This document shows positions 2,997 to 62,246 of a DNA stretch of 64,000 bases, one piece after another. This DNA is from Tachypleus tridentatus (taxonomy: Eukaryota; Arthropoda; Merostomata; Xiphosura; Limulidae). The DNA lies in NCBI RefSeq assembly GCF_004210375.1, contig NC_134834.1, positions 93,872,170 through 93,936,169 of the forward strand. Direction: 5' to 3'. Numbering within the stretch: the first letter of the stretch is position 1; each line of letters begins with the position of its first letter. The notes beneath the pieces were generated by a model. That model saw nothing but the letters and a program-made list of their open reading frames with translations, was not told the origin of the DNA and ran no database searches. The position numbers were made by a program, and so were the translations under genes.

Positions 2997-3378
2997 CATA
3001 CCTACAGAACAAAGACTAATGTTCTCTCGAAACAAGTTGTAACAAATGTGTCTCGTGTTTTACACGTGCAAGACTTCTAGGGTAATTCTACATAGATAGC
3101 TACAAGTGACTTCCACACGCAAAACAAAAAATATATATTATTTTGATAAATAATAAAACTTGATAAATAATAAAACAAATGGTTCCTGAGGGAAAAGTGT
3201 AATGTTCCTGTTTTTCTTATTACATAAAACTTATCGCCAGTTAGTTTCTCTTCTACAAACAAATAATATAAATAAACAAACCGGTTGATTCGATTGGTTA
3301 TGTCTCCCTCTCAAAATCCTTTCTATTTGTTTTACTAATTTACCGCCTCTCCCTTCTAAATAATTCTGCAAGTTGTTG

Positions 3379-3416
3379 TATATATATATATAAATATATA
3401 TGTGTGTGTGTGTGTT
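3379..3416. repeat. (TA)n-(TG)n microsatellite
   Basis: A compound run of TA then TG dinucleotides, repeated in the right copy at about 11590-11629. Confidence 0.9.
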
Positions 3417-3569
3417 TCTAACTTAAAATTTAAACCTTTTTTTAGATCACACATATCACACTTTGTATCCAATGTATCTTTTCAAACATTACTTTTAATA
3501 AGTCTATTAAGTATCAACAACACGAATATCGCCCTACCCTTGAAATAACTAAACAGATGCAAGCCTGTT

Positions 3570-3692
3570 GGCCCCAACGGCACAGCGGGATATCTGCGGA
3601 CTTATAATGCTAGGAACCGGGTTTCGATACCTGTTGTGGGCAGAACACAGATCGCCCAACTTGAAGCTTTGTGATTAATTATAAACAAACAA
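3570..3692 (+). mobile_element. type 3 SINE
   Basis: It begins with a GGCCCC...ACGGCACAGCGGGAT head that includes a box A-like stretch. Then come CGGACTTATAATGCT, the box B-like GGGTTTCGATACC, the diagnostic GTGGGCAGAACACAGAT, and an A-rich tail ending in AAACAAACAAG. This is one of the most complete type 3 copies. Confidence 0.8.
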
Positions 3693-4372
3693 GTGTACGC
3701 GTTTCGCAATTCACTGAACTACTTTTAAAACCAATAGACTCCATTGTGTAACCCAGCTTCGTGGATATTAAATTAGTTCAAATATATATACAGTTTTTAT
3801 TTTTAAGGTTAACTGTATGGCTGTTATGAACTAATGAGCATTAAGCCTAGCAGTTTATTGTTTAAAGCACGTGTTGTATATTCTGGTCTCAAATAGGCAG
3901 AAATTCAGTTATGCATTATTGATATTGCTATGGTATTTGGATCTAGAAAGTATTAGTAGCAGATAAGTTTGTCGCCACAAACCAAAAGGTAGAGATAATT
4001 TGACAGAGTGAATCAGTGGCTTATCAATGGCTTATCGATAAAGAGACGATCAGACAAGGAGACAATAAACAAATTATTTTTGTTTTATTCAGAAGAACAA
4101 CAGGCCTCAAGAAAGAGAAATCGAGAAAAGGTTTGTTTGCTTGTATTAAAACTCGATTTCTAATGTTATAAGTCAGCAGGACTGTCGCTGTGCCACCGGA
4201 GCTCGGGCAGGGAAATGTCTTATACAAAAGAATAATGCAGTTTATGTGCACGGAAACCTAAATAAGTGAATGAAATTAAAACATAGACTGGTCTGTGAAA
4301 GGAGATAAATATATCATAAGGATAATCATTCCCAGATCATATCTGTATACATATATTTTTACGTCGCTTAAC

Positions 4373-4648
4373 GGCCCGGCATAGCCAGGTGGGTTGAGGC
4401 ATTCGACTCGTAATCGGACGGTCGCGGGTTCGAATCCTCGTCACACCAAATATGCTCGCCCTTTCAGCCGTGGAGGCGTTATCATGTGACGGTCAATTCC
4501 ACTATTTGTTGGTAAAAGAGTAGCCAAAGAGTTGGCGGTGGATGGTGATGACTAGCTGCATTCGCTCTGGTCTTACACTGCTAAATTAAGGACGGCTAGC
4601 ACAGATATCCCTCGAGTAGCTTTACGCAAAATAAAAAAACAAACAAAC
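4373..4648 (+). mobile_element. type 1 SINE, full length
   Basis: The head has box A (TAGCCAGGTGGGTTGAGG) and box B (GGTTCGAATCC), with a CTCGTAA anticodon-loop equivalent like tRNA-Thr(CGU). The central block (CTCGCCCTTTCAGCCGTGG), the conserved 3' block (GTTGGCGGTGGATGGTGATG) and the A-rich tail follow in order. Confidence 0.92.
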
Positions 4649-4995
4649 TGGCTTTAAGCAGTGAATTCGGAAATTATACTTATTCGAAGTATCCATATCA
4701 TGTATTATCCATTCTCATAGAATAACTGTCATTATAGGAAAATTATCATTTTTATATCTTCGCGATAATAAATTAAAAATTATTTGCCATTTCTTCTACT
4801 TGAACAGTTAATATAGCATTCATTTTGTTATTTTTTTTTTCTTAATGCATAGGTTCTTTTTTCTAATATTAATTAACATCCTTACGTTACAATAAAAGGT
4901 AAAGGTGTTGATAATATGTCATAATAAGACATACAAAAACAAGAGCAAATTTCACAGGTCACTAACGACAAGCGGCTCATGATGTGCCAATCACC

Positions 4996-5255
4996 AGTTC
5001 ATGGCTAGATGGTTAAGGCGTTCACTCGTAATCCAAGGGTCGCGGGTTCGAGTCCCCATCACATTAAACATGTTAGCCCTTTAGCCGTGGGAGCATTATA
5101 ATGTGACGGTCACTATTCGTTAGTAAAAGAGTAGCCCAAGAGTTGGCGGAGGGTGGTGATGACTAGCTGTCTTCCATCTAGTCTTACACCGCTAAATTAG
5201 GGACGGCTAGCGCAGATAGCCCTCGTGTACCTTGCGAGAAATTCCAAAATAAACA
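4996..5255 (+). mobile_element. type 1 SINE, 5' end diverged
   Basis: The head starts at TTCATGGCTAGATGG rather than GCCCGGCATGG. Box B (GGTTCGAGTCC) and the rest of the element are intact down to GCGAGAAATTCCAAAATAAAC. It lies about 350 bp after the previous copy in the same orientation. Confidence 0.88.
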
Positions 5256-5794
5256 ATCGCCAATTAAAAATTAGAAATCAATCGATATTTAAATTTATTT
5301 GTCTTTGAGGCCTATAATTCTTAATTGACCTAATAATAAGTCACTTTTAACAGACTTAATTTAATTCGTATAATTGAAACAATCTTTATCGAAACGAATT
5401 CAAAGAAAAACAAAAAAAGCGAAGGTTCACCCAGTGGCGATAAATGTAACTTTTATTAAATCTTCATAGGAAAAACGTTTTCAGATTTTTTTTAGTATCC
5501 CTATAAATTAATAAAGATTAATTAAAGTAATTAAACTGAGCACTGTATGAGGTTTGTTAAAAACAGCTCTATTTGTACGAAGATTGATTATATATAGCAC
5601 GTAGGGTAAAGCTGAATATCGGGAGATGTGGTCGCTTTAAAATAAAATAACTAACAGCAGGTACAGAAGTTGTAGTTAACGGATTATCAACCATATATAG
5701 TTATTTAAGATAGTAAAATTTCTTTATTGTAACTTAAACGAATCTGTCTGAAAGTTCATACTTCCTCCCTAGAGACTCCCTAGAGACCCTAGAT

Positions 5795-5900
5795 ACAGTA
5801 AGTATCCAGACTTATGATGCTAAAATTCAGCTTTTGATACCCGTGACTGGCATGGCACAGATAGACCACTATGGAGCTTTGTCCTTAACAACAGAGAAAC
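5795..5900 (+). mobile_element. type 3 SINE
   Basis: Partial head (CAGTAAGTATCCAGACTTATGATG), a degraded box B (TTTTGATACCC), the body GGCATGGCACAGATAGACC, and the tail CTTTGTCCTTAACAACAGAG. Confidence 0.7.
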
Positions 5901-7197
5901 GAAAACAAATTGAAAGCTGGCTTCTATTCCATCCAATATGTCTGTTTTGAAAGATCTCATTCGATTACATATGTAGCCTTGCAAAGAGATGCTTATAATA
6001 AGTTGGTGTTTCTATGGAAACATGAGTTTTTTCTTTTAAGTGACTAGATTACTATTGGCTTACTTGCATCGATTGTTATCTTTCAAATCCGTTAACAAAT
6101 GGGCACAGAGACACATGGCCCACAATACATGTTTCAATTATTTTCAAAGAGAAAAATTTGTGATTGGTTCTTTTCTACCCTATATATACGTATAACAGCT
6201 TATAAATATGTTAAATTTTCATACTGTATAAATAATAACCAAAACTAAAAGTTACGTCAAAATAACAACGGTGAAAGGTTTCTCAGGTTAAAGATTAATA
6301 AATTTCAACACTCTCGAAGGTCATTCATGTTGAACCCCTTTCTGGTATCGTACGTCGTTATTGAATAAACAATAAATGTGTTTCTTTCACAAAAAAATAT
6401 TGGACTGACGAGGACACGTAAATATGTTGAAGCTTGAATTTATATAAATTTAGGTGTTTTTTTTGTTATTGTAGACTTTTGACTTATGAGCACAACACAG
6501 ATAGCTTATAGTGTAGTTCTGTAAACAACGCACAAAGCAAAATAAACCAACTCTGACCTTAAACTTTATTTTATGTTAATTCTTGGTTAAAAAATTCCAA
6601 TAAGCGTGCATCTAGTAATCTATCAATTAATCACAAAAAGTAGAAATATTGGTTATTTGGAGTAAGCCAATTTTACGGATTTTTACTGGAGAATGAGTAC
6701 TGGATTTGTACATGAAGTAAATAGTGCACTGTTTCAAAGTTCGTGTCTAATGTAAAACTTCTTTCGTTCAACAGATTTATCACTAAATTCGTCAAATACA
6801 ATTATATAAGAAAAGTGCGATTTACATCTAAAAACGTCTCTTTTCAGTTTCTATCCTTTTTCAAGAGAAATGTAAAGAATTGAAGAATCGCATTTTGTTT
6901 CGATATATTACCAAGTATTACTAAGTATTACCAAGTTATGAAAATAGCTAAAATTAACACTGCACAGCTTATGTTTTGGTTTACTTTCACGATGTTTAAG
7001 AATTACATTGATGGCACGAACAGCACAGTGTATTCCAGTGTGTTTTGGACATACGATTTACAAACTCATAAATGTTATGGTTCAAACATGATAGGCTGGG
7101 CGTGGTCTAGTGACTAAATGTTAGATTCAGATCAGAAAGTTCAAAGTTCGACTTTTAATACACAGTTGGACATGTTTCTTTCTCACTTTTAGATGTA
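5901..7197. other. unique sequence between SINEs and minisatellite (left copy)
   Basis: No coding signal is supported. In the right copy the same stretch is open for 60-70 codons at 14258-14467 and 14912-15103. One-base differences alter or interrupt both frames in this copy, which argues against either being a gene. Confidence 0.55.
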
Positions 7198-9345
7198 GAA
7201 GAATTATGACAGTCAATCCCAATATACCAGTATTAAAGGTAGCAATGTAGACGGCGGATTGTGACAGTTAATCCCGTTATTCCATTGTTAAAAGTAGCTA
7301 TGTCGACGGGGGATTGTGAGAGTCAATCCCTCTGTTCCATTGTTAAAAGTAGTTATGTAGACGACGGACTGTGACAGTCAGTCCCACTATTTCATTATCA
7401 AAAGTAGATATGTAAATGACGGACTGTGACAGTAAATCACATTATTCCATTATTAAAAGTAGCTATGTAGACGGCGGACTCTGAGAGTCAATCCCTCTAT
7501 TCCATTGTTGAAAGTAGCTCTGTAGACGGTGGATTGTGAAAGTTTATCCCTTTATTCCATTATTAGAAGTAACTGTGTAGATGGTGGATTGTGACAGTCA
7601 GTTCCGCTATTTCATTATTAAAAGTAGATATGTAGATGACGGACTGTGACAGTAAATCACATTATTCCATTATTAAAGTAGCTATGTAGACGGCGGACTC
7701 TGAGAGTCAATCCCTCTATTCCATTGTTGAAAGTAGCTCTGTAGACGGTGGATTGTGAAAGTTTATCCCTTTATTCCATTATTAGAAGTAACTGTGTAGA
7801 TGGTGGATTGTGACAGTCAGTTCCGCTATTTCATTATTAAAAGTAGATATGTAGATGACGGACTGTGACAGTAAATCACATTATTCCATTATTAAAAGTA
7901 GCTATGTAGACGGCGGACTCTGAGAGTCAATCCCTCTATTCCATTGTTGAAAGTAGCTCTGTAGACGGTGGATTGTGAAAGTTTATCCCTTTATTCCATT
8001 ATTAGAAGTAACTGTGTAGATGGTGGATTGTGACAGTCAGTTCCGCTATTTCATTATTAAAAGTAGATATGTAGATGACGGACTGTGACAGTAAATCACA
8101 TTATTCCATTATTAAAAGTAGCTATGTAGACGGCGGACTCTGAGAGTCAATCCCTCTATTCCATTGTTGAAAGTAGCTCTGTAGACGGTGGATTGTGAAA
8201 GTTTATCCTTTATTCCATTATTAGAAGTAACTGTGTAGATGGTGGATTGTGACAGTCAGTTCCGCTATTTCATTATTAAAAGTAGATATGTAGATGACGG
8301 ACTGTGACAGTAAATCACATTATTCCATTATTAAAAGTAGCTATGTAGACGGCGGACTCTGAGAGTCAATCCCTCTATTCCATTGTTGAAAGTAGCTCTG
8401 TAGACGGTGGATTGTGAAAGTTTATCCCTTTATTCCATTATTAGAAGTAACTCTGTAGACGGTGGATTGTGACAGTTAATCCCGTTATTCCATTGTTAAA
8501 AGTAGCTATGTCGACGGGGGATTGTGAGAGTCAATCCCTCTGTTCCATTGTTAAAAGTAGTTATGTAGACGACGGACTGTGACAGTCAGTCCCACTATTT
8601 CATTATCAAAAGTAGATATGTAGATGACGGACTGTGACAGTAAATCACATTATTCCATTATTAAAAGTAGCTATGTAGACGGCGGACTCTGAAAGTTTAT
8701 CCCTTTATTCCATTATTAGAAGTAACTCTGTAGACGGTGGATTGTGAAAGTTTATCCCTTTATTCCATTATTAGAAGTAACTCTGTAGACGGTGGATTGT
8801 GACAGTCAATCCCTCTATTCCATTGTTGAAAGTAGCTCTGTAGACGGTGGATTGTGAAAGTTTATCCCTTTATTCCATTATTAGAAGTAACTGTGTAGAT
8901 GGTGGATTGTGACAGTCAGTTCCGCTATTTCATTATTAAAAGTAGATATGTAGATGACGGACTGTGACAGTAAATCACATTATTCCATTATTAAAAGTAG
9001 CTATGTAGACGGCGGACTCTGAGAGTCAATCCCTCTATTCCATTGTTGAAAGTAGCTCTGTAGACGGTGGATTGTGAAAGTTTATCCCTTTATTCCATTA
9101 TTAGAGGTAACTGTGTAGATGGTGGATTGTGACAGTCAGTTCCGCTATTTCATTATTAAAAGTAGATATGTAGATGACGGACTGTGACAGTCAATGTTTT
9201 CTATTTCATTAGTAAGACTAACTGTGTAGATGACGGACTGTGACAGTCAGTCTTTCTATTCTCTTACTAAAAGTAGTTATGTAGACGACGGACTGTGACA
9301 GTCAGTCTCTATTCCATTATACAAAGTAGCTATGTTGAGAGCGGG
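7198..9345 (+). repeat. 55-bp minisatellite with 220-bp higher-order repeat (left copy)
   Basis: About 39 units of roughly 55 bp, each built on a pattern like GTGACAGTCAATCCC...ATTCCATT.TTAAAAGTAG. Four distinguishable unit types (A starting GACTCTGAGAG, B GATTGTGAAAG, C GATTGTGACAGTCAGTTCC, D GACTGTGACAGTAAATC) cycle in the order A-B-C-D, giving a 220-bp period seen at about 7472, 7693, 7913, 8132 and 8351. An introductory block (7255-7470) recurs near 8463-8680. Edge units are more diverged. Confidence 0.93.
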
Positions 9346-9441
9346 TGCAGTTGATTGTTTGTCCTTTCTCTCTCTCTAGTCAAGATCTGTAAATTAATGA
9401 TGGCTGTACCGAAACCTGATATAGCCATTTAGCCCGCTTGT

Positions 9442-9871
9442 GAAGGTGTGATTACATTGGATAATACAATGAATGTCTGGTTACACTTGATAATACAATG
9501 AAGGTCGGTTACCCATGGTAATACAGTGAAGTCTGATTACTCTTGGTAGTACAGTTAAGGCCTGGTTACCCTTGGTAATACAGTGAAGGTCTAGTTACAG
9601 TAGGAAATGCAATGAAGGTCTGACTACACTGATAAACACAATGAAGGTCTGGTTACAGTGAGCGATACAATGAAGGTCTTGTTAAACTGGGTAATTTAGT
9701 GAATATCTGACTACTCTGGTAAATAGAATGAAGGTCTGGTTATAGTGGGTAATACAGTGATCTGGTTATAGTGGGTAATACAGTGAAGGTTTGGTTATAG
9801 TGGGTAATAGAGTGAATGTCTGACTAACCTGGTAAATAGAATGAAGGTCTGGTTATAGTGGGTAATACAGT
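9442..9871 (+). repeat. 29-bp minisatellite (left copy)
   Basis: About 14-15 diverged units of the form GGTAATACAGTGAAGGTCTG plus GTTACAGTG. It starts about 100 bp after the 55-bp array and shares no obvious unit with it. Confidence 0.88.
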
Positions 9872-11334: not shown

Positions 11335-11782
11335 AAAACAAAAAATATATATTATTTTGATAAATAATAAAACTTGATAAATAATAAAACAAATGGTTCC
11401 TGAGGGAAAAGTGTAATGTTCCTGTTTTTCTTATTACATAAAACTTATCGCCAGTTAGTTTCTCTTCTACAAACAAATAATATAAATAAACAAACCGGTT
11501 GATTCGATTGGTTATGTCTCCCTCTCAAAATCCTTTCTATTTGTTTTACTAATTTACCGCCTCTCCTTCTAAATAATTCTGCAAGTTGTTGTATATATAT
11601 ATATAAATATATATGTGTGTGTGTGTGTTTCTAACTTAAAATTTAAACCTTTTTTTAGATCACACATATCACACTTTGTATCCAATGTATCTTTTCAAAC
11701 ATTACTTTTAATAAGTCTATTAAGTATCAACAACACGAATATCGCCCTACCCTTGAAATAACTAAACAGATGCAAGCCTGTT

Positions 11783-11906
11783 GGCCCCAACGGCACAGCG
11801 GGATATCTGCGGACTTATAATGCTAGGAACCGGGTTTCGATACCTGTTGTGGGCAGAACACAGATCGCCCAACTTGAAGCTTTGTGATTAATTATAAACA
11901 AACAAG
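11783..11906 (+). mobile_element. type 3 SINE (duplicate of 3570-3692)
   Basis: Same copy as in the left segment, with the same head, GGGTTTCGATACC and ATAAACAAACAAG tail. It counts as one insertion if the segments are one locus. Confidence 0.8.
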
Positions 11907-12586
11907 TGTACGCGTTTCGCAATTCACTGAACTACTTTTAAAACCAATAGACTCCATTGTGTAACCCAGCTTCGTGGATATTAAATTAGTTCAAATATAT
12001 ATACAGTTTTTATTTTTAAGGTTAACTGTATGGCTGTTATGAACTAATGAGCATTAAGCCTAGCAGTTTATTGTTTAAAGCACGTGTTGTATATTCTGGT
12101 CTCAAATAGGCAGAAATTCAGTTATGCATTATTGATATTGCTATGGTATTTGGATCTAGAAAGTATTAGTAGCAGATAAGTTTGTCGCCACAAACCAAAA
12201 GGTAGAGATAATTTGACAGAGTGAATCAGTGGCTTATCAATGGCTTATCGATAAAGAGACGATCAGACAAGGAGACAATAAACAAATTATTTTTGTTTTA
12301 TTCAGAAGAATAACAGGCCTCAAGAAAGAGAAATCGAGAAAAGGTTTGTTTGCTTGTATTAAAACTCGATTTCTAATGTTATAAGTCAGCAGGACTGTCG
12401 CTGTGCCACCGGAGCTCGGGCAGGGGAAATGTCTTATACAAAAGAATAATGCAGTTTATGTGCACGGAAACCTAAATAAGTGAATGGAATTAAAACATAG
12501 ACTGGTCTGTGAAAGGAGATAAATATATCATAAGGATAATCATTCCCAGATCATATCTGTATACATATATTTTTACGTCGCTTAAC

Positions 12587-12862
12587 GGCCCGGCATAGCC
12601 AGGTGGGTTGAGGCATTCGACTCGTAATCAGACGGTCGCGGGTTCGAATCCTCGTCACACCAAATATGCTCGCCCTTTCAGCCGTGGAGGCGTTATCATG
12701 TTACGGTCAATTCCACTATTCGTTGGTAAAAGAGTAGCCAAAGAGTTGGCGGTGGATGGTGATGACTAGCTGCATTCGCTCTAGTCTTACACTGCTAAAT
12801 TAAGGACGGCTAGCGCAGATAGCCCTCGAGTAGCTTTACGCGAAATTCAAAAACAAACAAAC
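12587..12862 (+). mobile_element. type 1 SINE (duplicate of 4373-4648)
   Basis: Same insertion as in the left segment, with scattered substitutions (for example ATGTTACGG here versus ATGTGACGG) and a tail reading CGCGAAATTCAAAAACAAAC. The left copy has CGCAAAATAAAAAAACAAAC. Confidence 0.92.
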
Positions 12863-13208
12863 TGGCTTTAAGCAGTGAATTCGGAAATTATACTTATTCG
12901 AAGTATCCATATCATGTATTATCCATTCTCATAGAATAACTGTCATTATAGGAAAATTATCATTTTTATATCTTCGCGATAATAAATTAAAAATTATTTG
13001 CCATTTCTTCTACTTGAACAGTTAATATAGCATTCATTTTGTTATTTTTTTTTTCTTAATGCATAGGTTCTTTTTTCTAATATTAATTAACATCCTTACG
13101 TTACAATAAAAGGTAAAGGTGTTGATAATATGTCATAATAAGACATACAAAAACAAGAGCAAATTTCACAGGTCACTAACGACAAGCGGCTCATGATGTG
13201 CCAATCAC

Positions 13209-13473
13209 CAGTTCATGGCTAGATGGTTAAGGCGTTCACTCGTAATCCAAGGGTCGCGGGTTCGAGTCCCCATCACATTAAACATGTTAGCCCTTTAGCC
13301 GTGGGAGCATTATAATGTGACGGTCACTATTCGTTAGTAAAAGAGTAGCCCAAGAGTTGGCGGAGGGTGGTGATGACTAGCTGTCTTCCATCTAGTCTTA
13401 CACCGCTAAATTAGGGACGGCTAGCGCAGATAGCCCTCGTGTACCTTTGCGAGAAATTCCAAAAATAAACAAT
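13209..13473 (+). mobile_element. type 1 SINE (duplicate of 4996-5255)
   Basis: Same insertion as in the left segment. It differs by single-base indels in the tail (CCTTTGCGAG versus CCTTGCGAG), as expected from sequencing error or allelic change. Confidence 0.88.
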
Positions 13474-14008
13474 CGCCAATTAAAAAATTAGAAATCAATC
13501 GATATTTAAATTTATTTGTCTTTGAGGCCTATAATTCTTAATTGACCCTCATAATAAGTCACTTTTAACAGACTTAATTTAATTCGTATAATTGAAACAA
13601 TCTTTATCGAAACGAATTCAAAGAAAAACAAAAAAAGCGAAGGTTCACCCAGTGGCGATAAATGTAACTTTTATTAAATCTTCATAGGAAAAACGTTTTC
13701 AGATTTTTTTTAGTATCCCTATAAATTAATAAAGATTAATTAAAGTAATTAAACTGAGCACTGTATGAGGTTTGTTAAAAACAGCTCTATTTGTACGAAG
13801 ATTGATTATATATAGCACGTAGGGTAAAGCTGAATATCGGGAGATGTGGTCGCTTAAAAATAAAATAACTAACAGCAGGTACAGAAGTTGTAGTTAACGG
13901 ATTATCAACCATATATAGTTATTTAAGATAGTAAAATTTCTATATTGTAACTTAAACGAATCTGTCTGAAAGTTCATACTTCCTCCCTAGAGACTCCCTA
14001 GAGACCCT

Positions 14009-14115
14009 AGATACAGTAAGTATCCAGACTTATGATGCTAAAATTCAGCTTTTGATACCCGTGACTGGCATGGCACAGATAGACCACTATGGAGCTTTGT
14101 CCTTAACAACAGAGA
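14009..14115 (+). mobile_element. type 3 SINE (duplicate of 5795-5900)
   Basis: Same insertion as in the left segment, apparently without differences across the body and tail. Confidence 0.7.
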
Positions 14116-15417
14116 AACGAAAACAAATTGAAAGCTGGCTTCTATTCCATCCAATATGTCTGTTTTGAAAGATCTCATTCGATTACATATGTAGCCTTGC
14201 AAAGAGATGCTTATAATAAGTTGGTGTTTCTATGGAAACATGAGTTTTTTCTTTTAAGTGACTAGATTACTATTGGCTTACTTGCATCGATTGTTATCTT
14301 TCAAATCCGTTAACAAATGGGCACAGAGACACATGGCCCACAATACATGTTTCAATTATTTTCAAAGAGAGAAAATTTGTGATTGGTTCTTTTCTACCCT
14401 ATATATACGTATAACAGCTTATAAATATGTTAACTTTTCATACTGTATAAATAATAACCAAAACTAAAAGTTACGTCAAAATAACAACGGTGAAAGGTTT
14501 CTCAGGTTAAAGATTAACAAATTTCAACACTCTCGAAGGTCATTCATGTTGAACCCCTTTCTGGTATCGTACGTCGTTATTGAATAAACAATAAATGTGT
14601 TTCTTTCACAAAAAAATATTGGACTGACGAGGACACGTAAATATGTTGAAGCTTGAATTTATATAAATTTAGGGTTTTTTTTGGTTATTGTAGACTTTTG
14701 ACTTATGAGCACAACACAGATAGCTTATAGTGTAGTTCTGTAAACAACGCACAAAGCAAAATAAACCAACTCTGACCTTAAACTTTATTTTATGTTAATT
14801 CTTGGTTAAAAAATTCCAATAAGCGTGCATCTAGTAATCTATCAATTAATCACAAAAAGTAGAAATATTGGTTATTTGGAGTAAGCCAATTTTACGGATT
14901 TTTACTGGAGAATGAGTACTGGATTTGTACATGAAGTAAATAGTGCACTGTTTCAAAGTTCGTGTCTAATGCAAAACTTCCTTTCGTTCAACAGATTTAT
15001 CACTAAATTCGTCAAATACAATTATATAAGAAAAGTGCGATTTACATCTAAAAACGTCTCTTTTCAGTTTCTATCCTTTTTCAAGAGAAATGTAAAGAAT
15101 TGAAGAATCGCATTTTGTTTCGATATATTACCAAGTATTACTAAGTATTACCAAGTTATGAAAATAGCTAAAATTAACACTGCACAGCTTATGTTTTGGT
15201 TTACTTTCACGATGTTTAAGAATTACATTGATGGCACGAACAGCACAGTGTATTCCAGTGTGTTTTGGACATACGATTTACAAACTCATAAATGTTATGG
15301 TTCAAACATGATAGGCTGGGCGTGGTCTAGTGACTAAATGTTAGATTCAGATCAGAAAGTTCAAAGTTCGACTTTTAATACACAGTTGGACATGTTTCTT
15401 TCTCACTTTTAGATGTA

Positions 15418-17568
15418 GAAGAATTATGACAGTCAATCCCAATATACCAGTATTAAAGGTAGCAATGTAGACGGCGGATTGTGACAGTTAATCCCGTTAT
15501 TCCATTGTTAAAAGTAGCTATGTCGACGGGGGATTGTGAGAGTCAATCCCTCTGTTCCATTGTTAAAAGTAGTTATGTAGACGACGGACTGTGACAGTCA
15601 GTCCCACTATTTCATTATCAAAAGTAGATATGTAAATGACGGACTGTGACAGTAAATCACATTATTCCATTATTAAAAGTAGCTATGTAGACGGCGGACT
15701 CTGAGAGTCAATCCCTCTATTCCATTGTTGAAAGTAGCTCTGTAGACGGTGGATTGTGAAAGTTTATCCCTTTATTCCATTATTAGAAGTAACTGTGTAG
15801 ATGGTGGATTGTGACAGTCAGTTCCGCTATTTCATTATTAAAGTAGATATGTAGATGACGGACTGTGACAGTAAATCACATTATTCCATTATTAAAAGTA
15901 GCTATGTAGACGGCGGACTCTGAGAGTCAATCCCTCTATTCCATTGTTGAAAGTAGCTCTGTAGACGGTGGATTGTGAAAGTTTATCCCTTTATTCCATT
16001 ATTAGAAGTAACTGTGTAGATGGTGGATTGTGACAGTCAGTTCCGCTATTTCATTATTAAAAGTAGATATGTAGATGACGGACTGTGACAGTAAATCACA
16101 TTATTCCATTATTAAAAGTAGCTATGTAGACGGCGGACTCTGAGAGTCAATCCCTCTATTCCATTGTTGAAAGTAGCTCTGTAGACGGTGGATTGTGAAA
16201 GTTTATCCCTTTATTCCATTATTAGAAGTAACTGTGTAGATGGTGGATTGTGACAGTCAGTTCCGCTATTTCATTATTAAAAGTAGATATGTAGATGACG
16301 GACTGTGACAGTAAATCACATTATTCCATTATTAAAAGTAGCTATGTAGACGGCGGACTCTGAGAGTCAATCCTCTATTCCATTGTTGAAAGTAGCTCTG
16401 TAGACGGTGGATTGTGAAAGTTTATCCCTTTATTCCATTATTAGAAGTAACTGTGTAGATGGTGGATTGTGACAGTCAGTTCCGCTATTTCATTATTAAA
16501 AGTAGATATGTAGATGACGGACTGTGACAGTAAATCACATTATTCCATTATTAAAAGTAGCTATGTAGACGGCGGACTCTGAGAGTCAATCCCTCTATTC
16601 CATTGTTGAAAGTAGCTCTGTAGACGGTGGATTGTGAAAGTTTATCCCTTTATTCCATTATTAGAAGTAACTCTGTAGACGGTGGATTGTGACAGTTAAT
16701 CCCGTTATTCCATTGTTAAAAGTAGCTATGTCGACGGGGGATTGTGAGAGTCAATCCCTCTGTTCCATTGTTAAAAGTAGTTATGTAGACGACGGACTGT
16801 GACAGTCAGTCCCACTATTTCATTATCAAAAGTAGATATGTAGATGACGGACTGTGACAGTAAATCACATTATTCCATTATTAAAAGTAGCTATGTAGAC
16901 GGCGGACTCTGAAAGTTTATCCCTTTATTCCATTATTAGAAGTAACTCTGTAGACGGTGGATTGTGAAAGTTTATCCCTTTATTCCATTATTAGAAGTAA
17001 CTCTGTAGACGGTGGATTGTGACAGTCAATCCCTCTATTCCATTGTTGAAAGTAGCTCTGTAGACGGTGGATTGTGAAAGTTTATCCCTTTATTCCATTA
17101 TTAGAAGTAACTGTGTAGATGGTGGATTGTGACAGTCAGTTCCGCTATTTCATTATTAAAAGTAGATATGTAGATGACGGACTGTGACAGTAAATCACAT
17201 TATTCCATTATTAAAAGTAGCTATGTAGACGGCGGACTCTGAGAGTCAATCCCTCTATTCCATTGTTGAAAGTAGCTCTGTAGACGGTGGATTGTGAAAG
17301 TTTATCCCTTTATTCCATTATTAGAGGTAACTGTGTAGATGGTGGATTGTGACAGTCAGTTCCGCTATTTCATTATTAAAAGTAGATATGTAGATGACGG
17401 ACTGTGACAGTCAATGTTTTTCTATTTCATTAGTAAGACTAACTGTGTAGATGACGGACTGTGACAGTCAGTCTTTCTATTCTCTTACTAAAAGTAGTTA
17501 TGTAGACGACGGACTGTGACAGTCAGTCTCTCTATTCCATTATACAAAGTAGCTATGTTGAGAGCGGG
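15418..17568 (+). repeat. 55-bp minisatellite with 220-bp higher-order repeat (right copy)
   Basis: Unit order and unit count match the left copy: the offset is 8220 both at the first units (7198/15418) and deep inside (9001/17221). Only small indels differ, for example CAGTCTCTCTATT here versus CAGTCTCTATT there. Confidence 0.93.
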
Positions 17569-17663
17569 TGCAGTTGATTGTTTGTCCTTTCTCTCTCTCT
17601 AGTCAAGATCTGTAAATTAATGATGGCTGTACCGAAACCTGATATAGCCATTTAGCCCGCTTG

Positions 17664-18094
17664 TGAAGGTGTGATTACATTGGATAATACAATGAATGTC
17701 TGGTTACACTTGATAATACAATGAAGGTCGGTTACCCATGGTAATACAGTGAAGTCTGATTACTCTTGGTAGTACAGTTAAGGCCTGGTTACCCTTGGTA
17801 ATACAGTGAAGGTCTAGTTACAGTAGGAAATGCAATGAAGGTCTGACTACACTGATAAACACAATGAAGGTCTGGTTACAGTGAGCGATACAATGAAGGT
17901 CTTGTTAAACTGGGTAATTTAGTGAATATCTGACTACTCTGGTAAATAGAATGAAGGTCTGGTTATAGTGGGTAATACAGTGATCTGGTTATAGTGGGTA
18001 ATACAGTGAAGGTTTGGTTATAGTGGGTAATAGAGTGAATGTCTGACTAACCTGGTAAATAGAATGAAGGTCTGGTTATAATGGGTAATACAGT
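17664..18094 (+). repeat. 29-bp minisatellite (right copy)
   Basis: Same series of diverged units as 9442-9871, including the same irregular shortened unit (ATACAGTGATCTGG). Confidence 0.88.
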
Positions 18095-20684: not shown

Positions 20685-20839
20685 TGCACTCTAGAAAGGT
20701 AACTTATGATTCTCTTGTAATAATTTTCCTTCGACAAATGTTTTCTTGTTTTACTAAATTTAATAACTATAGTTTTCTTTCACGCATCTTTATTTCTGTC
20801 GTTGTATTAATTATACTTCTTGGAACTCTTGTTTTTTAG

Positions 20840-21234
20840 CATGTAAGCGAAAGGAAGAAGCCCCCCAGCAGAAAAAACACAACCAGCCTAAGAAACCGCG
20901 CCTCGTCTTCACCGACCTTCAAAGGCGGACGTTACAGGCAATCTTCAAGGAGACCAAAAGGCCTTCGAAAGAAATGCAGATTACCATTGCACAACAACTT
21001 GGACTTGATCTAACTACGGTAGGGAACTTCTTCATGAACGCTAGACGTCGTTCTCAAGACAAGTGGGCGGAAGAAAATAAATCTCAACCACATGATGGCG
21101 CAGCAGTCGACAACATCAACGTGTCTTGTGTAACACTTATCAATAGCAGCGCCCCCTCGCCGCTGTCACCATCAACAAACTGTGAGTCGCCGACTCTTTC
21201 AACAGTTTCGGTCAGTAACTTAACATCATCCTAG
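20840..21234 (+). CDS. onecut: ONECUT (HNF6-type) homeobox transcription factor, terminal homeodomain exon
   Basis: ONECUT proteins are nuclear transcription factors that bind DNA through one cut domain plus a divergent homeodomain. They act in nervous-system and endoderm-type differentiation. This exon follows an acceptor at 20838-20839 (GTTTTTTAG) and begins with CA, completing a split codon (phase 1), then CKRKEEAPQQKK, the linker that follows the cut domain in this family. The homeodomain spans roughly exon residues 15-75 (LVFTDLQRRTLQAIF, helix 3 TTVGNFFMNARRRSQ) with the family-specific Phe48 and Met50. A Ser/Thr/Pro-rich tail of about 50 residues ends at TAG 21232-21234. An internal ATG at 20974 is not the start. 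The cut-domain exon lies beyond the window, usually behind one large intron. ONECUT identity is near certain; which paralogue cannot be told. Confidence 0.96.
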
Positions 21235-41972: not shown

Positions 41973-42240
41973 GAAGTATTTATTTTTATATATGCAAAAA
42001 CGGCTCGTTTGGGTTGAGAAAATATTTTACGTAGAAGAGCTAACAACGTTTCGACTTTCTTCGGTCATTATCAGTTTGTTTTGGTTTTTTTTGTTTTTTT
42101 TTAACCTGACGATGACCGAAGAAGGTCGAAACGTTGTTCGCTCTTCTACGTAAAATATTTTATCAACCCAAACGAGTCGTTTTTACATATATATTTCTCT
42201 ACAAGTGGGTTTTCTCGACATCACTGAAGTATTTATTTTT
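41973..42240 (+). mobile_element. short inverted-repeat PLE-derived insertion with exact 15-bp target duplication
   Basis: GAAGTATTTATTTTT occurs at 41973-41987 and again at 42226-42240, enclosing a 238-bp insert. The insert is a near-perfect inverted repeat of about 80-base arms (41994-42073 with 42106-42185) around a T-rich loop, followed by CTCTACAAGTGGGTTTTCTC. Each arm carries CTGACGA...GAAGAAGGTCGAAACGTTG, the same terminal motif that follows a PLE GIY-YIG remnant at 44130. That points to a non-autonomous PLE terminal-repeat insertion. Confidence 0.8.
42106..42133 (+). ncRNA. hammerhead-ribozyme-like core in the PLE terminal repeat
   Basis: CTGACGA, then T, then the potential stem GACC-GAAGAA-GGTC, then GAAAC: the order of the hammerhead catalytic core (CUGANGA, stem II, GAAA). 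Hammerhead motifs are known from PLE termini. One unpaired base lies between CTGACGA and stem II, and stem I was not found, so activity is doubtful. Confidence 0.35.
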
Positions 42241-42470
42241 GTAATTAAATTCGGTAAATGTTTTCGGTAATGACGTAAATATTTACTGCATTTTTAATAA
42301 AGAAAATGACACATTATTCTTATAACGATGTGTTTCGTTGAAAGACTGAACTCATAAATGTTTATGTCCTTAAACAATTCAAAATATCAGAAAATATAAA
42401 CTTACCTCTGTTTTTGCGTTATTACATGCACCATATAATTGCTTTTTTTTACTAATCAATTCTGAAATTA

Positions 42471-42748
42471 TGTTTGTTTGTTTTTTAATTTCGCACAAAG
42501 CTACTCCAGGGCTATCTGCGCTAGCCGTCCCTAATTTAGCGGTGTAAGACTAAGAGGGAAGGCAGCTAGTCATCACCACCCACCGCCAACTCTTGGGCTA
42601 CTCTTTTACCAACGAATAGTGGGATTGATCGTCACATTATAACGCCCCCACGGCTGAAAGGGCGAACATGTTTGGCGCGACGGGGATGCAAACACGCGAC
42701 CCTCAGATTACGAGTCGCACGCCTTAACACGCTTGGCCATGCCGGGCC
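42471..42748 (-). mobile_element. type 1 SINE, near consensus
   Basis: Complete from TGTTTGTTTG at 42471 to CCATGCCGGGCCC. Box B on the - strand reads CGTGTTTGCATCCC, slightly mutated. Confidence 0.93.
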
Positions 42749-43080
42749 CTCTAACAATTTTGAATAATAATGTAACTTTTAATTCAAGGACTTGATAACA
42801 ATACTTTACATTTAAATATTAGACAAAATGAAACTGTGTTATTTGTAATTTCACAAAGGAGAAAGTTTTGCTGGGGAAACATTGTGACCAAAATAAACAA
42901 ACTTTTACTCTGTACAACCAAAAAACCTTTTGTGAAATACTTTAGAATGTTACTATGACAAACAATCTTATAAAATTGTATTACAGGTCTGTTTTCACTT
43001 CCTCAAAAATAAAACTGAAAATAAAATCTGTGACGTCGAGAACTCATGCATTATTTGATTCGCTGAAGGCAGTATCTATG

Positions 43081-43180: not shown

Positions 43181-43359
43181 AGCTGCAGGCTCTCTTATGA
43201 ACTACAGCTTTGATTATTTAAAACTCATCAGTTAGTACTCTTATAATAGTGATATGAAAATAAACACGTAATATGGTCATTAAACTGCTCGCCCACTGTA
43301 TAATACTAACTTATAAATTAAATGTAATGTTTTGTTTCATGTGTAAAACAAAAACTCAA

Positions 43360-44208
43360 CATATTAAGAAACCAAATAAACACAGCCACATAACCATGTT
43401 CACCTGATAAAGTTAACAATGAAATCGGCAAAATAACACAACACTTCATCAATACCAATAAATGTCTTCCAAAAACAGTTGAAAAATTTTAAGATATACC
43501 AAGGCCAACAACACACAAACATCAATAAATCCCAAGATACAAAACTACAAAAATGCTGTCTACCATATATTCTTGATATCAGGGAATAAATAACCAATAC
43601 TTGAAAAAAAAAAACAACAAACTTATAACAAAACACAGGTTTCAGTAAACACCGAATTTATTCAAAAACTAGGTACAAAACTAAAGTCCATACTATATAA
43701 AAATACACTGACAAACACAACACCAACATTATTTATAAAATGCAATGCAACAACTGCCACGACTTCTATATTGGAGAAATAAGCAGAAAAATGGAAACTT
43801 GATTCAAACAACAACAACAACAAAAAAAAAAAAAACACCTTCACATGTTTTTGAACACTGCAAATCAAATAAACACAACATACCCATAGAAAACATCCAG
43901 ATACTAAACAGGGGAAACAATCATAAGCAAATGCAAAATCAAAGAAGCCCAACTTGTACAGCAACTGAAACTAAAATTAAACCAATATAAAAAAAACACC
44001 TTTATACCTATACTAATTAATAATTTAACATCCAACTGCAACGCCACTTATACTCCAGTACTCATTTATACTCTCGTTCCTAAGACATGCGCCTGGCAAC
44101 AGTCAGTTGCAAACTATCTCTTTGTTAACCTGAAGATGACTTAAGAAGAACGAAACGTTGTTCTGTACTTTATTTTAATTAAAATTCTAATATTCATACC
44201 AGTAATCT
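43360..44208 (+). pseudogene. Penelope-like retroelement remnant: broken GIY-YIG C-terminus and 3' end
   Basis: PLEs encode a reverse transcriptase fused to a GIY-YIG endonuclease. Pieces of the C-terminal part are readable in several + frames. At 43740-43799 there is QCNNCHDFYIGEISRKMET (the GIY-YIG signature as FYIGE), closed by TGA at 43800. After an A-run, HVFEHCKSNKHNIPIENIQIL follows in another frame. After a further shift comes KIKEAQLVQQLKLKLNQY. Upstream fragments (FIQKLGTKLKSILYKNTL) fit the linker before the endonuclease. The coding stretch is followed by the hammerhead-like CTGAAGA...ACGAAACGTTG at 44130-44158. The reverse transcriptase core is absent, so this is a 5'-truncated, decayed copy. 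Confidence 0.75.
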
Positions 44209-44210
44209 TG

Positions 44211-44485
44211 GGCCCGGCATGGCCAGGTGGTTAAGACCATCGAGTCGTAATCGAAGATCGCAGGTTCGAACTCCCGTCACACCAAACATACTCGCCCTTT
44301 CAGCTATAGGGGCGTTATAATGTGACGGTCAATCCCACTATTTGTTGGTAAAAGAGTAGCCCAAGAGTTGGCGGTGGGTGGTGATGACTAGCTGCCTTCC
44401 CTCTAGTCTTACACTGCTAAATTAGAGACGAATAGCACATATAGCCCTCGAGCAGCTTTGTGCGAAATTCAAAAACAAACAAACC
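44211..44485 (+). mobile_element. type 1 SINE adjoining the PLE end
   Basis: Starts GGCCCGGCATGGCCAGGTGG immediately after the PLE-derived sequence and ends TTCAAAAACAAACAAACC. No clear target duplication was found. Confidence 0.93.
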
Positions 44486-44970
44486 AAGATGATAAACAAT
44501 TTTTACTGTCAGGTAAGCTTCGAATGCGTGAATCGTTTTTGAATTATAGGTAATAAGAAACCATAAGAAAGTCGTTTCTAAGTTAAAAAAACTAAGTTAT
44601 ACTTTTATATTAAGTTACCGTAACAATACAACACGTTTCAGTTAAAAGTAGGGCACTTTTGATATTCGTTACGTATTTTCACGCCTGCGCACACTTCAAC
44701 TTCAAATAAACAATTTTTTGGCAATAAATAATATTTTGTGCGATGACCCAGTGTATTCTTTACATTATATGTCAAGTTGTGTTTCTGAAACTTAAGTACA
44801 TGCAAGAGTAAGTGTACTCTTCACTAAGAAGGATTTTAAAAAATATTTGTTTTATCCTGAAAAAACATGCTTTGTTTCAAAAAATAGTGGTCCAAAACAT
44901 GTTTTACGTTACATAAAATTATACGGAGTATAGTTGTTCACATTAAAATGTATTTTGTGCCTCGTTATTT
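44486..44970. other. unique sequence, nothing recognised
   Basis: AT-rich with no open frame of interest. Confidence 0.5.
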
Positions 44971-51700: not shown

Positions 51701-52536
51701 TTACTTTTTAAAAGCGAAAAAATCACCAGTGGGATCTTCTAGCCAAGGGTAATTGTGGGGACACTCCAAACATGTGTGTAATCTGTTTGTTTCTCCAGGC
51801 AACTCTCTGGTGGTCAATGGACAAGCGTTGGGAATGCTGCAGTATGCTTGACCTTTGATGTCACATTTTTCTTTCCATGGAGCAAAGTCCCGGATGGAAC
51901 TGAGTTCTGTTGGATTTTGCATCCATTGCAGAACCTGTGTCATGGTGACAAAGTAAATATCGTTCTTGTCCAAAGATTCATCAATCCAAGTGATTAGAGC
52001 TTCCAAAAAACTTGGAGTTAAGTTTCAAGAATCCAGCATGAAAATATAAACCAAGAGGGGCGCGGTTGGTCTTGTAGTGGCGTTGCAGGTTGTTGTTAAG
52101 GAAGTTGTAGAACTGATCCCGTGTGATGATGTTGCTACAGGTGTCCACCATAGCGCAACCAGCTAGCTCTTCATCAAATTCAGGGTCATCACGTCTGTCC
52201 AATTCGTTCATGACCATCTCCCATACAGCGTGAGAGCGTGTAGGACAACGTTGTCCATTACCATGACACTTATGGGGCATACTGAAGTAAAGGGTATAGG
52301 GCCAAAGAGGAGGGTTGCTGAGAGGGGCTGTGATGGAAGAGTCGTAGAGGAAGGCCTGTTCTTCCATCATGGCAAATTGACTGTTTCCACCAACTCGCAG
52401 GTAAGGAGCACGAACGCCAACAACCGAATTGTCTGATATGTTTGCAAACCGTTCAATGATAAGCCTAGAACCCGCCATTTCCTTAGCCCAGGTGTCAATG
52501 TCAGCATTTGTCCAATACTCTTCGTTATTGCGATGG
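51701..52536 (-). CDS. CDA2: chitin deacetylase exon 4 (rest of the deacetylase domain and C-terminus), frameshifted
   Basis: Acceptor TACTTTTCAG at 52538-52537. One base completes the Thr of HSITH. It encodes the remaining catalytic motifs and the Cys-rich C-terminal tail. The main frame runs off at 52005-52010 into a premature TGA, while the neighbouring frame carries EALITWIDESLDKND onward to TAA 51703-51701. Without the extra A the exon is one open frame of 277 residues. Confidence 0.94.
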
Positions 52537-55500
52537 CTGAAAAGTACAAAGTGATATCTGTGAGCTTTAAAAGACATTTTTATATAATATTGGCATTACT
52601 TATTTAAGAACTAATAAGTTTAATCATCTAGGCCGAACATATATTACTGGAATCGAAAATAAATTAAAACGAAACGATAAGAATACCTAATTTAATTTCA
52701 CGTTTCCAGAACTTCGTCGTACATTATATCGTATAAGTTGTGCTAAAACACATTAATATTTTAAACAAAATATTGGATCTGTTTTCAGATAAGAAACAGA
52801 CGAGTTTTTTAAATAGTTTTCATTTTTCACTGGATTTTTGTTATGATGAAACGAAAACTGGTTCTCACGTGATAGAGTGCGCTGCTATCTCATGGCCTTT
52901 CCTATGCAACTCTTGTACAGCGGAGTAATTGGTATACTTGTGAGAAATGAAAAATGTGGATTTAATAGAACATCCATTGGGGTTGTTGCGACCTTCTTTA
53001 AATATGTCATGATAAACTGCCAAGTTATTGACGTTCACGGCGTCGTCAAAAGTAATAGCTACCATCTGAGGAATGTTGTTTGGTTCCAGTTTTCCAGGTA
53101 TTTGGGTACCATCCGGAGAACAAAAGCAGTCGGGAAGAATACATTGACTCTGGTCACAAGGCGGCGCTTTGTTCGGATCGTGCTCGGCTAAGAGCATGGA
53201 AACAATATCTCTAATAAGAAACAATTAAACTAACAAATTTATCGTTATCTTCTGATAAAACAAAGTTACGAAACAATAAATGAAATCATTAACTTCGAGT
53301 TGTAAGTTAATCAGTTTTTAAGGTAGTAGACTAGAATTAGATTTGTTATCACTTTTAAACAGAATTATTCAAACATACATATACAATTATATGTATATTT
53401 TAAGAAAATTAATGCTGATAAAGCAATCAAACTCAAAAGGAAGAACTATGTTAAAACAGCAAATCCAGACTTCTGACTAATTATATTAATTTGTCATAAC
53501 CTAAAAACAAGCGAAAAAAATAACTTTTTAATTAATTTAATTTACTTTGTTTCGGCTTCTTTATAGGTTATAACAAACCATATAACTATATATGTATATA
53601 TACAACATTGTTTATCTATGACGCAGCGAGTTTGTCAACTTTTATCCCTTGTTTATAGAAACCACACTTTGAGATTCAAAATTTTAGGCCAAATCAAATA
53701 TGCTCGACCTTTCAGCCGTGGGGGCGATATAATGTTACGGTCAATCCCACTATTCGCTGGTAAAAGCGCAACCCAAGAGTTGGCGGCGGTTGGGAATGAC
53801 TAGCTCTGGTCTTACACTGCTAAATTAGGGACGGCTAACGCAGGTAGCCCTCAAGTAGCTTTGCGCGAAATTCAAAACAAACCAAACGCGAAAGTAAGTT
53901 TTGTTGGTAATACATATATAACATTTTGTTATGTTGAACACGCATATTATCCTGTGCGATATCATTCGTAAGGTTTTTCTGTGAAACAAAATAGCCTCTT
54001 CTTCCCCATAAAACCTTGAACGTGTAAATTAGGCAACATGTAAAACGTTACAGCGAAGGATAATATTTAAACAAAAAAGAATAACCCTACTCACTGCAAG
54101 CATTCTCGTCAGATCCGTCGGAGCAGTCAGGAACACCGTTACAGAAAAGATCCCGCTCCATACAGTCTCCATTTCCACATGCAATTTTGTTAGCGCTGCA
54201 GATGGGCTCGTTGGTGGCGTAAAGAGGTACAGCTAACTTCTTTTTCTCAGTTTGATCGCAATTAGTAACTTCGTCTCTCCAGTTGCACGTCTGCGTTTCG
54301 ATGTCGAAGACAAGCCCAGAAGGACATCTTAAGGCCAGTAGACCATGGGTGGAACATCTGACAACATCTCGGCATTCTTCTTCTGGCGAAAGACGAAAAT
54401 ATTCACCAGGAAGTCTGCCTTTACATAGATCCGCATCATTCTGGCTAATTCGCAGTGGAGCACCTTCTATTTGTCGTTTGACGATGGACAGTGTTGACAC
54501 TAAGAAAAAATATAATAATCTTAAATACCATCTATCTGTGTCCCCACCAGTGACACAGTGGTATTTCTGTGGACTCACACCACTGGAAACTTGATTTTAA
54601 TACCGTGGTGTAACTTTGAGCTTAATTCCAAACAAACGTTTGGCGATGGACTGTGCTAACACTAAAAGAAAAATATTATAACTCTGAATACCATTTAAAA
54701 TTCGTCTAAAAGGACAGTACTGACACAATGAAAAAGACGAAATATTACAGCCTTCAACAGTGTAATTCTCATGTAAACTATTTTGAAATATGAAGATAAA
54801 TTTTCTTTTTACATTATTGGGATCATTTATTGAATAGTACGAGCTTTCTCTAACTTAATCAAATATTTATTTGAGACAATTCTGAACCATCTAAAAGTAT
54901 AATGAATAAATATATCTATATATACTTTCGTAGTTGTCTGGTTTTTAATGCTCGGATAAAACGAGAGGGCGCTATTTCTCACGTGCTTTAAACAATAATA
55001 ACTGTTCTGTTTTTTAACTAGTTTTCACATAATATTGCTTATATATTTATATTTGTCGAAACAACGCTGGTGGCTCTCGTGTGTAATAGAAATTCCAACT
55101 TAGGCAAAATGCATTTAACTGAATTATTTTTGGATTATATAGAAATGTTTTTATTGTTTTGTTTACAAATTATATAATTTACCAGTTTATTTATTACTTC
55201 TGACCTAGTTGGCAAGTGCGTAGCACTTTCTACAAAAGTAGGTTGATTTTAAGGCAGGCTTATTATGATTAAAACTGAGCAAAGTATGACAAAAAATTGT
55301 TTAAATAATGATACACTTTTCTCTTAGATCTCCTTTCTCAAAACAGATAGAAGATTATTTTAATATCAGTTTTCCTTCATCTAATTTGTCACTGGTGATA
55401 AAGCAGTACTTGAAGGCTGAAATGATTTTTGATCGTACAGATACATGGAGAACAAACAGTGCCACCTGGACCAATAGTCTGCCTCACCATCAACTGACGA

Positions 55501-61878: not shown

Positions 61879-61965
61879 GACCAATGAGGTATATCGACTA
61901 AATACGTATTGTAGAAAATTCGATAGTTATTCCATGCACTAACTGTGGAGGAGTTTGAACCTCAT

Positions 61966-62246
61966 GGGCCCGGCATGGCCAAGCGCGTTAAGGCGTGTGC
62001 TTCGTAATCCGAGGGTCGCGGGTTCGCGCCCGAGTCGTGCCAAACATGCTCGCCCTCCCAGCCGTGGGGGCGTTATAATGTGACGGTCATTCCCACTATT
62101 CGTTGGTAAAAGAGTAGCCCAAGAGTTGGCGGTGGGTGGTGATGACTAGCTGCCTTTCCTCTAGTCTTACACTGCTAAATTAGGGACGGCTAGCGCAGAT
62201 AGCCCTGGAGTAGCTTTGTGCGAAATTCAAAAACAAACAAACAAAC
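61966..62246 (+). mobile_element. type 1 SINE, near consensus, inverted to its neighbour
   Basis: GGCCCGGCATGGCCAAGCGC head, box B GGTTCGCGCCC, tail AAATTCAAAAACAAACAAAC. The flanks TTGAACCTCATG and TTGAACCCCAGG look like a slightly mutated target duplication. Confidence 0.95.

Follow-up and report, generated by a model that had tools for sequence, protein, structure and literature searches.

A probable minimal Penelope-like element made of two head-to-head pseudo-LTRs in Tachypleus tridentatus, and its hairpin relatives

We analyzed a stretch of 64,000 nucleotides of Tachypleus tridentatus DNA (assembly GCF_004210375.1, contig NC_134834.1, positions 93,872,170 to 93,936,169; hereafter, the window), in which a short inverted-repeat insertion occupies positions 41988-42225. 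The insert is best explained as a non-autonomous retrotransposon copy composed of two head-to-head pseudo-long terminal repeats (pseudo-LTRs) of a reverse transcriptase (RT)-encoding, probably GIY-YIG-type Penelope-like element (PLE), with almost no interior and with a target-site duplication (TSD). We regard this explanation, including insertion by a two-ended mechanism, as probable. Related copies elsewhere in this genome suggest that hairpins of this kind can be copied by themselves. A sequence-only reading of the window had already proposed a minimal non-autonomous PLE consisting nearly entirely of terminal repeat, and this view is upheld by the TSD, by the conserved tail and by a 3' end common to RT-coding PLE copies.

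The insertion and its parent element

The features of the insertion, and of one older remnant outside it, are the following:

41973..41987, no strand: left TSD GAAGTATTTATTTTT, an exact 15-mer in the sequence
41988..42077, minus strand: left arm, a tail-less pseudo-LTR in inverted orientation, with the outer end ATATATGCAAAAACGG, which is found again, slightly changed, in other copies
42046..42074, minus strand: left-arm hammerhead-like motif with a broken core (CTGATAA for CTGANGA) and one stem II mismatch
42078..42102, no strand: T-rich loop in the sequence, the junction of both pseudo-LTRs
42103..42193, plus strand: right arm, a sense-oriented pseudo-LTR
42106..42135, plus strand: candidate right-arm hammerhead motif CTGACGA-T-GACC-GAAGAA-GGTC-GAAACGTT, with a loopless stem III (ACGT) and a stem I of 3 bp
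42194..42225, plus strand: PLE tail, on the right arm only; a similar sequence lies just 3' of the 5' pseudo-LTR of locus L115
42226..42240, no strand: right TSD, again the 15-mer GAAGTATTTATTTTT
43345..44163, plus strand: older PLE remnant of a related family, outside the insertion, with a coding piece (43345-44023) and a pseudo-LTR piece (44119-44163)

The two near-complementary arms called by the sequence-only reading are present at the right coordinates (41987-42077 and 42103-42193); they measure 91 nt each, are 91% complementary and are spaced by 25 nt. The long RNA hairpin that it anticipated was recovered by computation, as the predicted fold of the region reaches -135.8 kcal/mol, whereas shuffles average -49.1 (z -21.7) and 0 of 200 did as well. 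The tail of 32 nt adjoins the right arm only. As for the exact 15-bp TSD, identical 15-mers do stand on both sides, but its true length is perhaps 13-15 bp: since the tails of other copies often terminate in CACTGA(TTA), the right 15-mer may begin with one or two tail bases (G or GA). The older remnant, located 1.1 kb 3' of the hairpin, shows mostly 77-81% identity and has a hammerhead-like motif of its own at 44130.

The arm and tail are identical in kind to the 3' end (pseudo-LTR plus tail) of PLE copies that carry an RT coding sequence. The same arm and tail were found in 17 further loci (L029-L045), eight of which have an inverted hammerhead core upstream and two of which (L044 and L045) have a short left arm. 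Open frames in arm-bearing loci match the Pfam family RVT_1 (L050, E 2.6e-11; L073, 2.9e-12; L051, 1.5e-11), and frames with a GIY-YIG-like motif occur in five of the eight loci inspected (L033 and L040-L043). The match of L042:436-942 to PF01541 (GIY-YIG) is weak (E 0.046), and Pfam gave no match for L073:3429-3758, L050:1918-2500 or L041:3253-3636. A search of NCBIfam returned solely RT families, all under the cut-off, and a search of PDB just two weak RT matches (E 0.075 and 0.089).

A sense tail upstream of the coding region is present in three of ten loci (L114, L115 and L119), at an approximately equal distance from that region; in L115 the order is pseudo-LTR with hammerhead, tail, 5' region and coding region. 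Because these tails precede the coding region, the tail at the insertion end would correspond to the RNA located just 3' of a pseudo-LTR. Such a position is expected from internal initiation of reverse transcription, which PMC11167929 describes for the anole PLE. Locus L037 was considered as a case of captured foreign sequence and dropped, as its middle resembles, by eye, the inverted PLE 5' region of L114 and L119.

Copies, junctions and tails in the genome

In the searched genome (2.17 Gb, 205 contigs), a 36-nt piece of the arm has 3,194 + 3,156 = 6,350 exact matches, while the reversed-pattern control has 0. Among the 100 matches listed, 21 pairs of consecutive arms lie on opposite strands at most 10 kb apart, and all 21 are in the minus-then-plus order. 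With 41973-42240 as the query, 40 of 3,872 candidates were scored and 91 matches listed; as this query includes the tail, the outcome is uninformative on tail frequency. It provided 22 two-armed copies whose left end (approximately TATATGCAAAAACGG) and right end (the tail) are much alike throughout. At least 11 identical bases flank both ends in 17 of these copies, and the flank identity is merely 7-9 bases in L021, L025, L026, L046 and L047. By their flanks, L018/L024 and L022/L023/L026 are duplicates. The expectation of the sequence-only reading that other copies would share the ends and carry TSDs was confirmed: the ends are much the same, the TSDs are mostly of 10-16 bp, and copies lacking these boundaries were not seen among those examined. 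For L049, a TSD was searched for and not found.

A near-identical copy 113 kb away (L009/L002) was ruled out as a second insertion, as it lies within a longer duplicated stretch that holds both the window copy and L009 (98.6% identity over 2,107 bases and 98.7% over 2,609 bases). The same insertions with their flanks also occur twice on contig C1, as L059/L061 (1.2 Mb apart, in opposite orientation) and L073/L074 (0.77 Mb apart); these repeats are segmental or false duplications.

The junction 25-mer TTTTACATAGAAGGTCGAAACGTTG shared by L058 and L062 has 498 exact matches in the genome. Other junctions are represented by 46 matches (the ACGT sister form), 13 loci (a palindromic junction, whose loci share a longer stretch when compared by eye), 16 and 7; for comparison, an uninterrupted stretch from the PLE 3' untranslated region into the arm occurs 4,083 times. 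The window copy has a different junction, the T-rich loop, and stands outside the 498-copy set. Because one junction counts 498 copies against 7-46 for four others, the minimal hairpin appears to have been copied as a unit. Twenty of the 498 copies were fetched, and they match the L058 core at 95-100% identity, although in a few cases over a shorter length; no similar flanks were found among them (90 nt on each side, E 1e-8). In L097 and L103, the junction is kept and the tail-less arm is cut short beside a TSD of 11-13 bp (seen by eye; the automatic TSD search misses both). Since these two truncated loci retain the junction, it was already present in the template. The view that every hairpin with this junction was formed anew is disfavored by the copy number and by the truncated L097 and L103. 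Relative to the asymmetric 498-copy junction, the tail is on the left in ten and on the right in ten of the 20 copies; in the sister form, it is on the left in 12 and on the right in 8 of 20 (L121/L122 being duplicates). At about 819-931 of the reverse complement of L114, a junction resembling the 498-copy one (by eye) immediately precedes a PLE 5' end and is itself preceded by a short tail in inverted orientation.

Tail frequency was determined on 73 loci not selected for the tail, comprising 20 of the 21 arm pairs, 20 of the 498 junction loci, 20 of the 46 sister-form loci and all 13 palindromic-junction loci. We found exactly one tail in each of the 65 loci with both arm ends readable (37 left, 28 right), with tail scores of 47 or more on the tailed side, 17 or less on the opposite side and a decoy maximum of 20. 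The remaining eight loci, in which one or both arm ends are unreadable, have one tail (six loci) or none (two loci). After removal of the duplicates L061, L074 and L122, 62 loci were left. When a single mismatch is allowed, 57 of the 62 have a TSD of 11 bp or longer, as opposed to 4 of 600 mismatched-flank pairings; for 9 bp or longer, the figures are 59 of 62 and 51 of 600. The flanks on the tail-less side contain 71% A+T. If the start site were chosen independently and with equal odds at each end, the outcome of 62/62 would have a probability near 2e-19.

Hammerhead motifs

The motif of the family reads GTGAAC-CTGACGA-T-GACC-GAAGAA-GGTC-GAAACGTT^GTTCGC (e.g., L031), with a stem I of 6 bp, including one G-U pair, and a stem II of 4 bp. 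Stem III consists of the palindrome ACGT only, which could pair between two molecules. The candidate hammerhead is a PLE-type one, its stem III being loopless. The core CUGANGA ... GAAA is present in the right arm of the window copy (42106-42135), with a predicted cleavage position after 42135, and fails in the left arm. Of the CTGACGA motifs ascribed to both arms by the sequence-only reading, the one in the right arm (42106) stands, but the left arm has CTGATAA on the minus strand. The G lost there is a position conserved in the hammerhead core. With the left core broken and the right stem I of only 3 bp, the idea of two working hammerheads finds no support in the window copy.

The pattern CTGACGA..GAAACGTT, with the T after CTGACGA excluded, has 321 matches in the genome and 22 in the control. 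The 100 matches listed include 62 family-like ones and 35 other distinct motifs. Among these 35, which have different stem II sequences, nine form a stem II of 3 bp or more with exactly one unpaired base and two form one with none; the shuffle means are 1.8 (one unpaired) and 1.9 (none), and the value of nine was reached in 0 of 2000 shuffles. The single unpaired base after CTGACGA had been taken for a variant or a sign of decay; as it recurs in nine of 35 distinct PLE-like motifs with other stem II sequences, it need not be decay. Stem II pairing is thus supported across PLE-like motifs. Of 16 fetched motifs, 12 show stem I pairing beside the core and seven have a stem I of at least 3 bp, counts that come without a control; in the window copy, stem I has 3 bp.

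The L058 core, which represents the 498-copy junction, contains CTGACGA on neither strand. The spread of a junction without the catalytic core agrees with the insertion of hammerhead mutants in vitro reported in PMC11167929. Covariance models did not bear out the predicted ribozyme fold: Rfam gave no match at gathering score over the whole window, and in a permissive scan over 401 bases the 21 matches, all below threshold, included no hammerhead, though loopless-stem-III forms possibly fall outside the Rfam models. The best of these matches were to microRNA-precursor families, as is often the case for long hairpins.

Insertion mechanism, known systems and surroundings

The one-tail rule and the distribution of the tail side are consistent with target-primed reverse transcription taking place twice in a coordinated manner, once on each strand and from two start sites. 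In such a reaction, the PLE protein would cut both target strands at staggered sites; one 3' end would prime reverse transcription at an outer start site, giving the tail end, and the other at an inner start site, giving the pseudo-LTR end. The two cDNAs would then meet head-to-head, either by microhomology between partial PLE cDNAs, which would found a hairpin, or by annealing of hairpin cDNAs, which would copy one. The template may be a hairpin RNA without coding capacity and, at the commonest junction, without the hammerhead core, and either strand may take either start site, which would yield the 10:10 tail side. PMC11167929 describes that both strands are cut and extended and that the tail is bounded by two RT start sites. 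The most far-reaching reading, which we hold to be somewhat less likely than not, is that two-armed PLE insertion is a coordinated two-ended reaction with the outer start always on one strand and the inner start always on the other, that a coding-free, core-less hairpin RNA is a sufficient template with its own family of about 500 copies, and that the ribozyme is unneeded for mobilization.

Several points weigh against the explanation as a whole. We infer the two-ended step from the ends of the elements, and the random tail side could also come from DNA-level flipping of the hairpin core. Copies sharing a junction are related by descent, and the 62 loci are not fully independent draws; the junction counts, in turn, are not normalized to the arm numbers of subfamilies CATAG and CGTAG. 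Two-ended insertion is not obligatory, because some longer copies such as L051 are single-ended: L051 is a 5'-truncated PLE copy with a 13-bp TSD and no inverted arm, and with rearranged PLE sequence at its 5' edge (by eye). With regard to the parent element, the C-terminal frame L042:2568-2882 matches PF01541 with E 2.5e-4 and 21.7 bits, below the gathering score of 22.6.

Insertion of a hairpin RNA by single priming, with one RT start at the tail and both arms read up to a fixed 5' end of the RNA, would produce copies truncated on the tail-less side with TSDs, as seen in L097 and L103. Yet, after a single read of one hairpin RNA the tail should always stand on the same side of the asymmetric junction, while 10 left and 10 right were found in 20 copies, and such a read requires an RNA 5' end precisely at the arm boundary; we consider it unlikely. 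The tail side also speaks against snap-back self-priming, in which the tail-primed cDNA folds back and copies its own arm outward, each hairpin being new. A fold-back on AGAAG/CTTCT is one way of writing the common junction, and self-priming on an antisense template has been proposed for head-to-head PLEs (PMC3846280). However, a snap-back would copy the tail to the second arm or else need an unexplained stop at the tail border, and two-tailed copies are absent among the 65 loci; moreover, independent origins are disfavored by the 498 copies of a single junction, as the four others have 7-46. This makes it somewhat less credible still than single priming.

A random tail side would, in turn, be readily obtained from a single master if one tail were fixed at insertion and the core were flipped later by recombination or cruciform resolution between the arms, which are long and nearly identical. 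Such flipping leaves the tail-less second arm unexplained, and we hold it to be about as improbable as single priming. A DNA transposon of the miniature inverted-repeat transposable element type, with terminal inverted repeats, would also be short, with inverted ends and a TSD. This reading is refuted in the main by the asymmetric ends with their one-sided tail; the arm and tail belong to RT-encoding copies, the TSD length is variable (mostly 10-16 bp), and some copies are 5'-truncated, which leaves it with hardly any likelihood.

Elsewhere in the window, a block of about 8.2 kb with the same tandem arrays appears twice in succession (3143-9871 and 11357-18094), the two occurrences being separated by a stretch of N (about 10.8-11.35 kb); this may be an assembly duplication. 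A SINE-like repeat of about 270 nt was counted by eye some 30 times in the 64 kb (six query loci shown), e.g., at 42467-42783, 44201-44496 and 61962-62246. Open frames recognized by eye include a homeobox-like piece (20773-21234), a chitin-deacetylase-like one (51981-52595) and a chitin-binding/LDL-receptor-like one (54087-54596), which point to an arthropod. One repeat of the genome also resembles a repeat known from horseshoe crabs.

The two-armed copies resemble the Penelope families of Adineta vaga in their pseudo-LTRs, in the inverted pseudo-LTR that closes the insert, in the one-sided tail and in the TSDs. According to PMC3846280, those families have an inverted pseudo-LTR, an optional 31-bp tail on one inverted pseudo-LTR and TSDs of 8-10 bp, the head-to-head arrangement being the commonest, and a few unrelated sequences lie between solo pseudo-LTRs with TSDs. 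Head-to-head pseudo-LTR architecture with one optional tail has thus been published before. The families described there are few-copy, in contrast to the near-interior-less two-pseudo-LTR hairpin in T. tridentatus, with one junction in about 500 copies and a one-tail rule in 65 loci. Poseidon PAc of Anolis carolinensis is likewise similar in its tail from internal RT start sites, its hammerhead in the region of pseudo-LTR and open reading frame, and its AT-rich targets (PMC11167929). It is described as tandem, whereas our element is an inverted hairpin; its hammerhead acts with the help of protein and is not required for insertion in vitro, and the sections of that paper available to us mention no hairpin derivative.

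The window motifs share the type I core and near-absent stem III of minimal PLE hammerheads, but are partly broken, and the amplified junction lacks the core. Such minimal hammerheads were reportedly treated by Cervera and de la Pena in 2014 and by Lunse et al. in 2017. As cited in passages of PMC7761336, PMC7229834 and PMC10085705, their core is of type I, their stem III is minimal or missing, and they are proposed to act as dimers. Metazoan retrozymes, as presented in PMC7229834, are also small non-autonomous retroelements with hammerheads. Retrozymes are recognized by direct tandem repeats of the hammerhead unit, whereas the window element has inverted repeats with one arm per end. The present analysis adds four points: the amplified interior-less hairpin, a count behind the one-tail rule, the randomness of the tail side, and a commonest junction that has lost the ribozyme core. 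None of the four was found in the open-licence PMC literature searched, which lacks most subscription papers, so that their absence is weak evidence for novelty.

The element bears on two questions, namely how PLE insertion is completed on the second side and what role the conserved hammerheads play. The many short inverted copies with readable ends constitute a natural record of the insertion reaction. They suggest that reverse transcription starts at a different site on each strand and that the ribozyme core is not needed for a template to spread.
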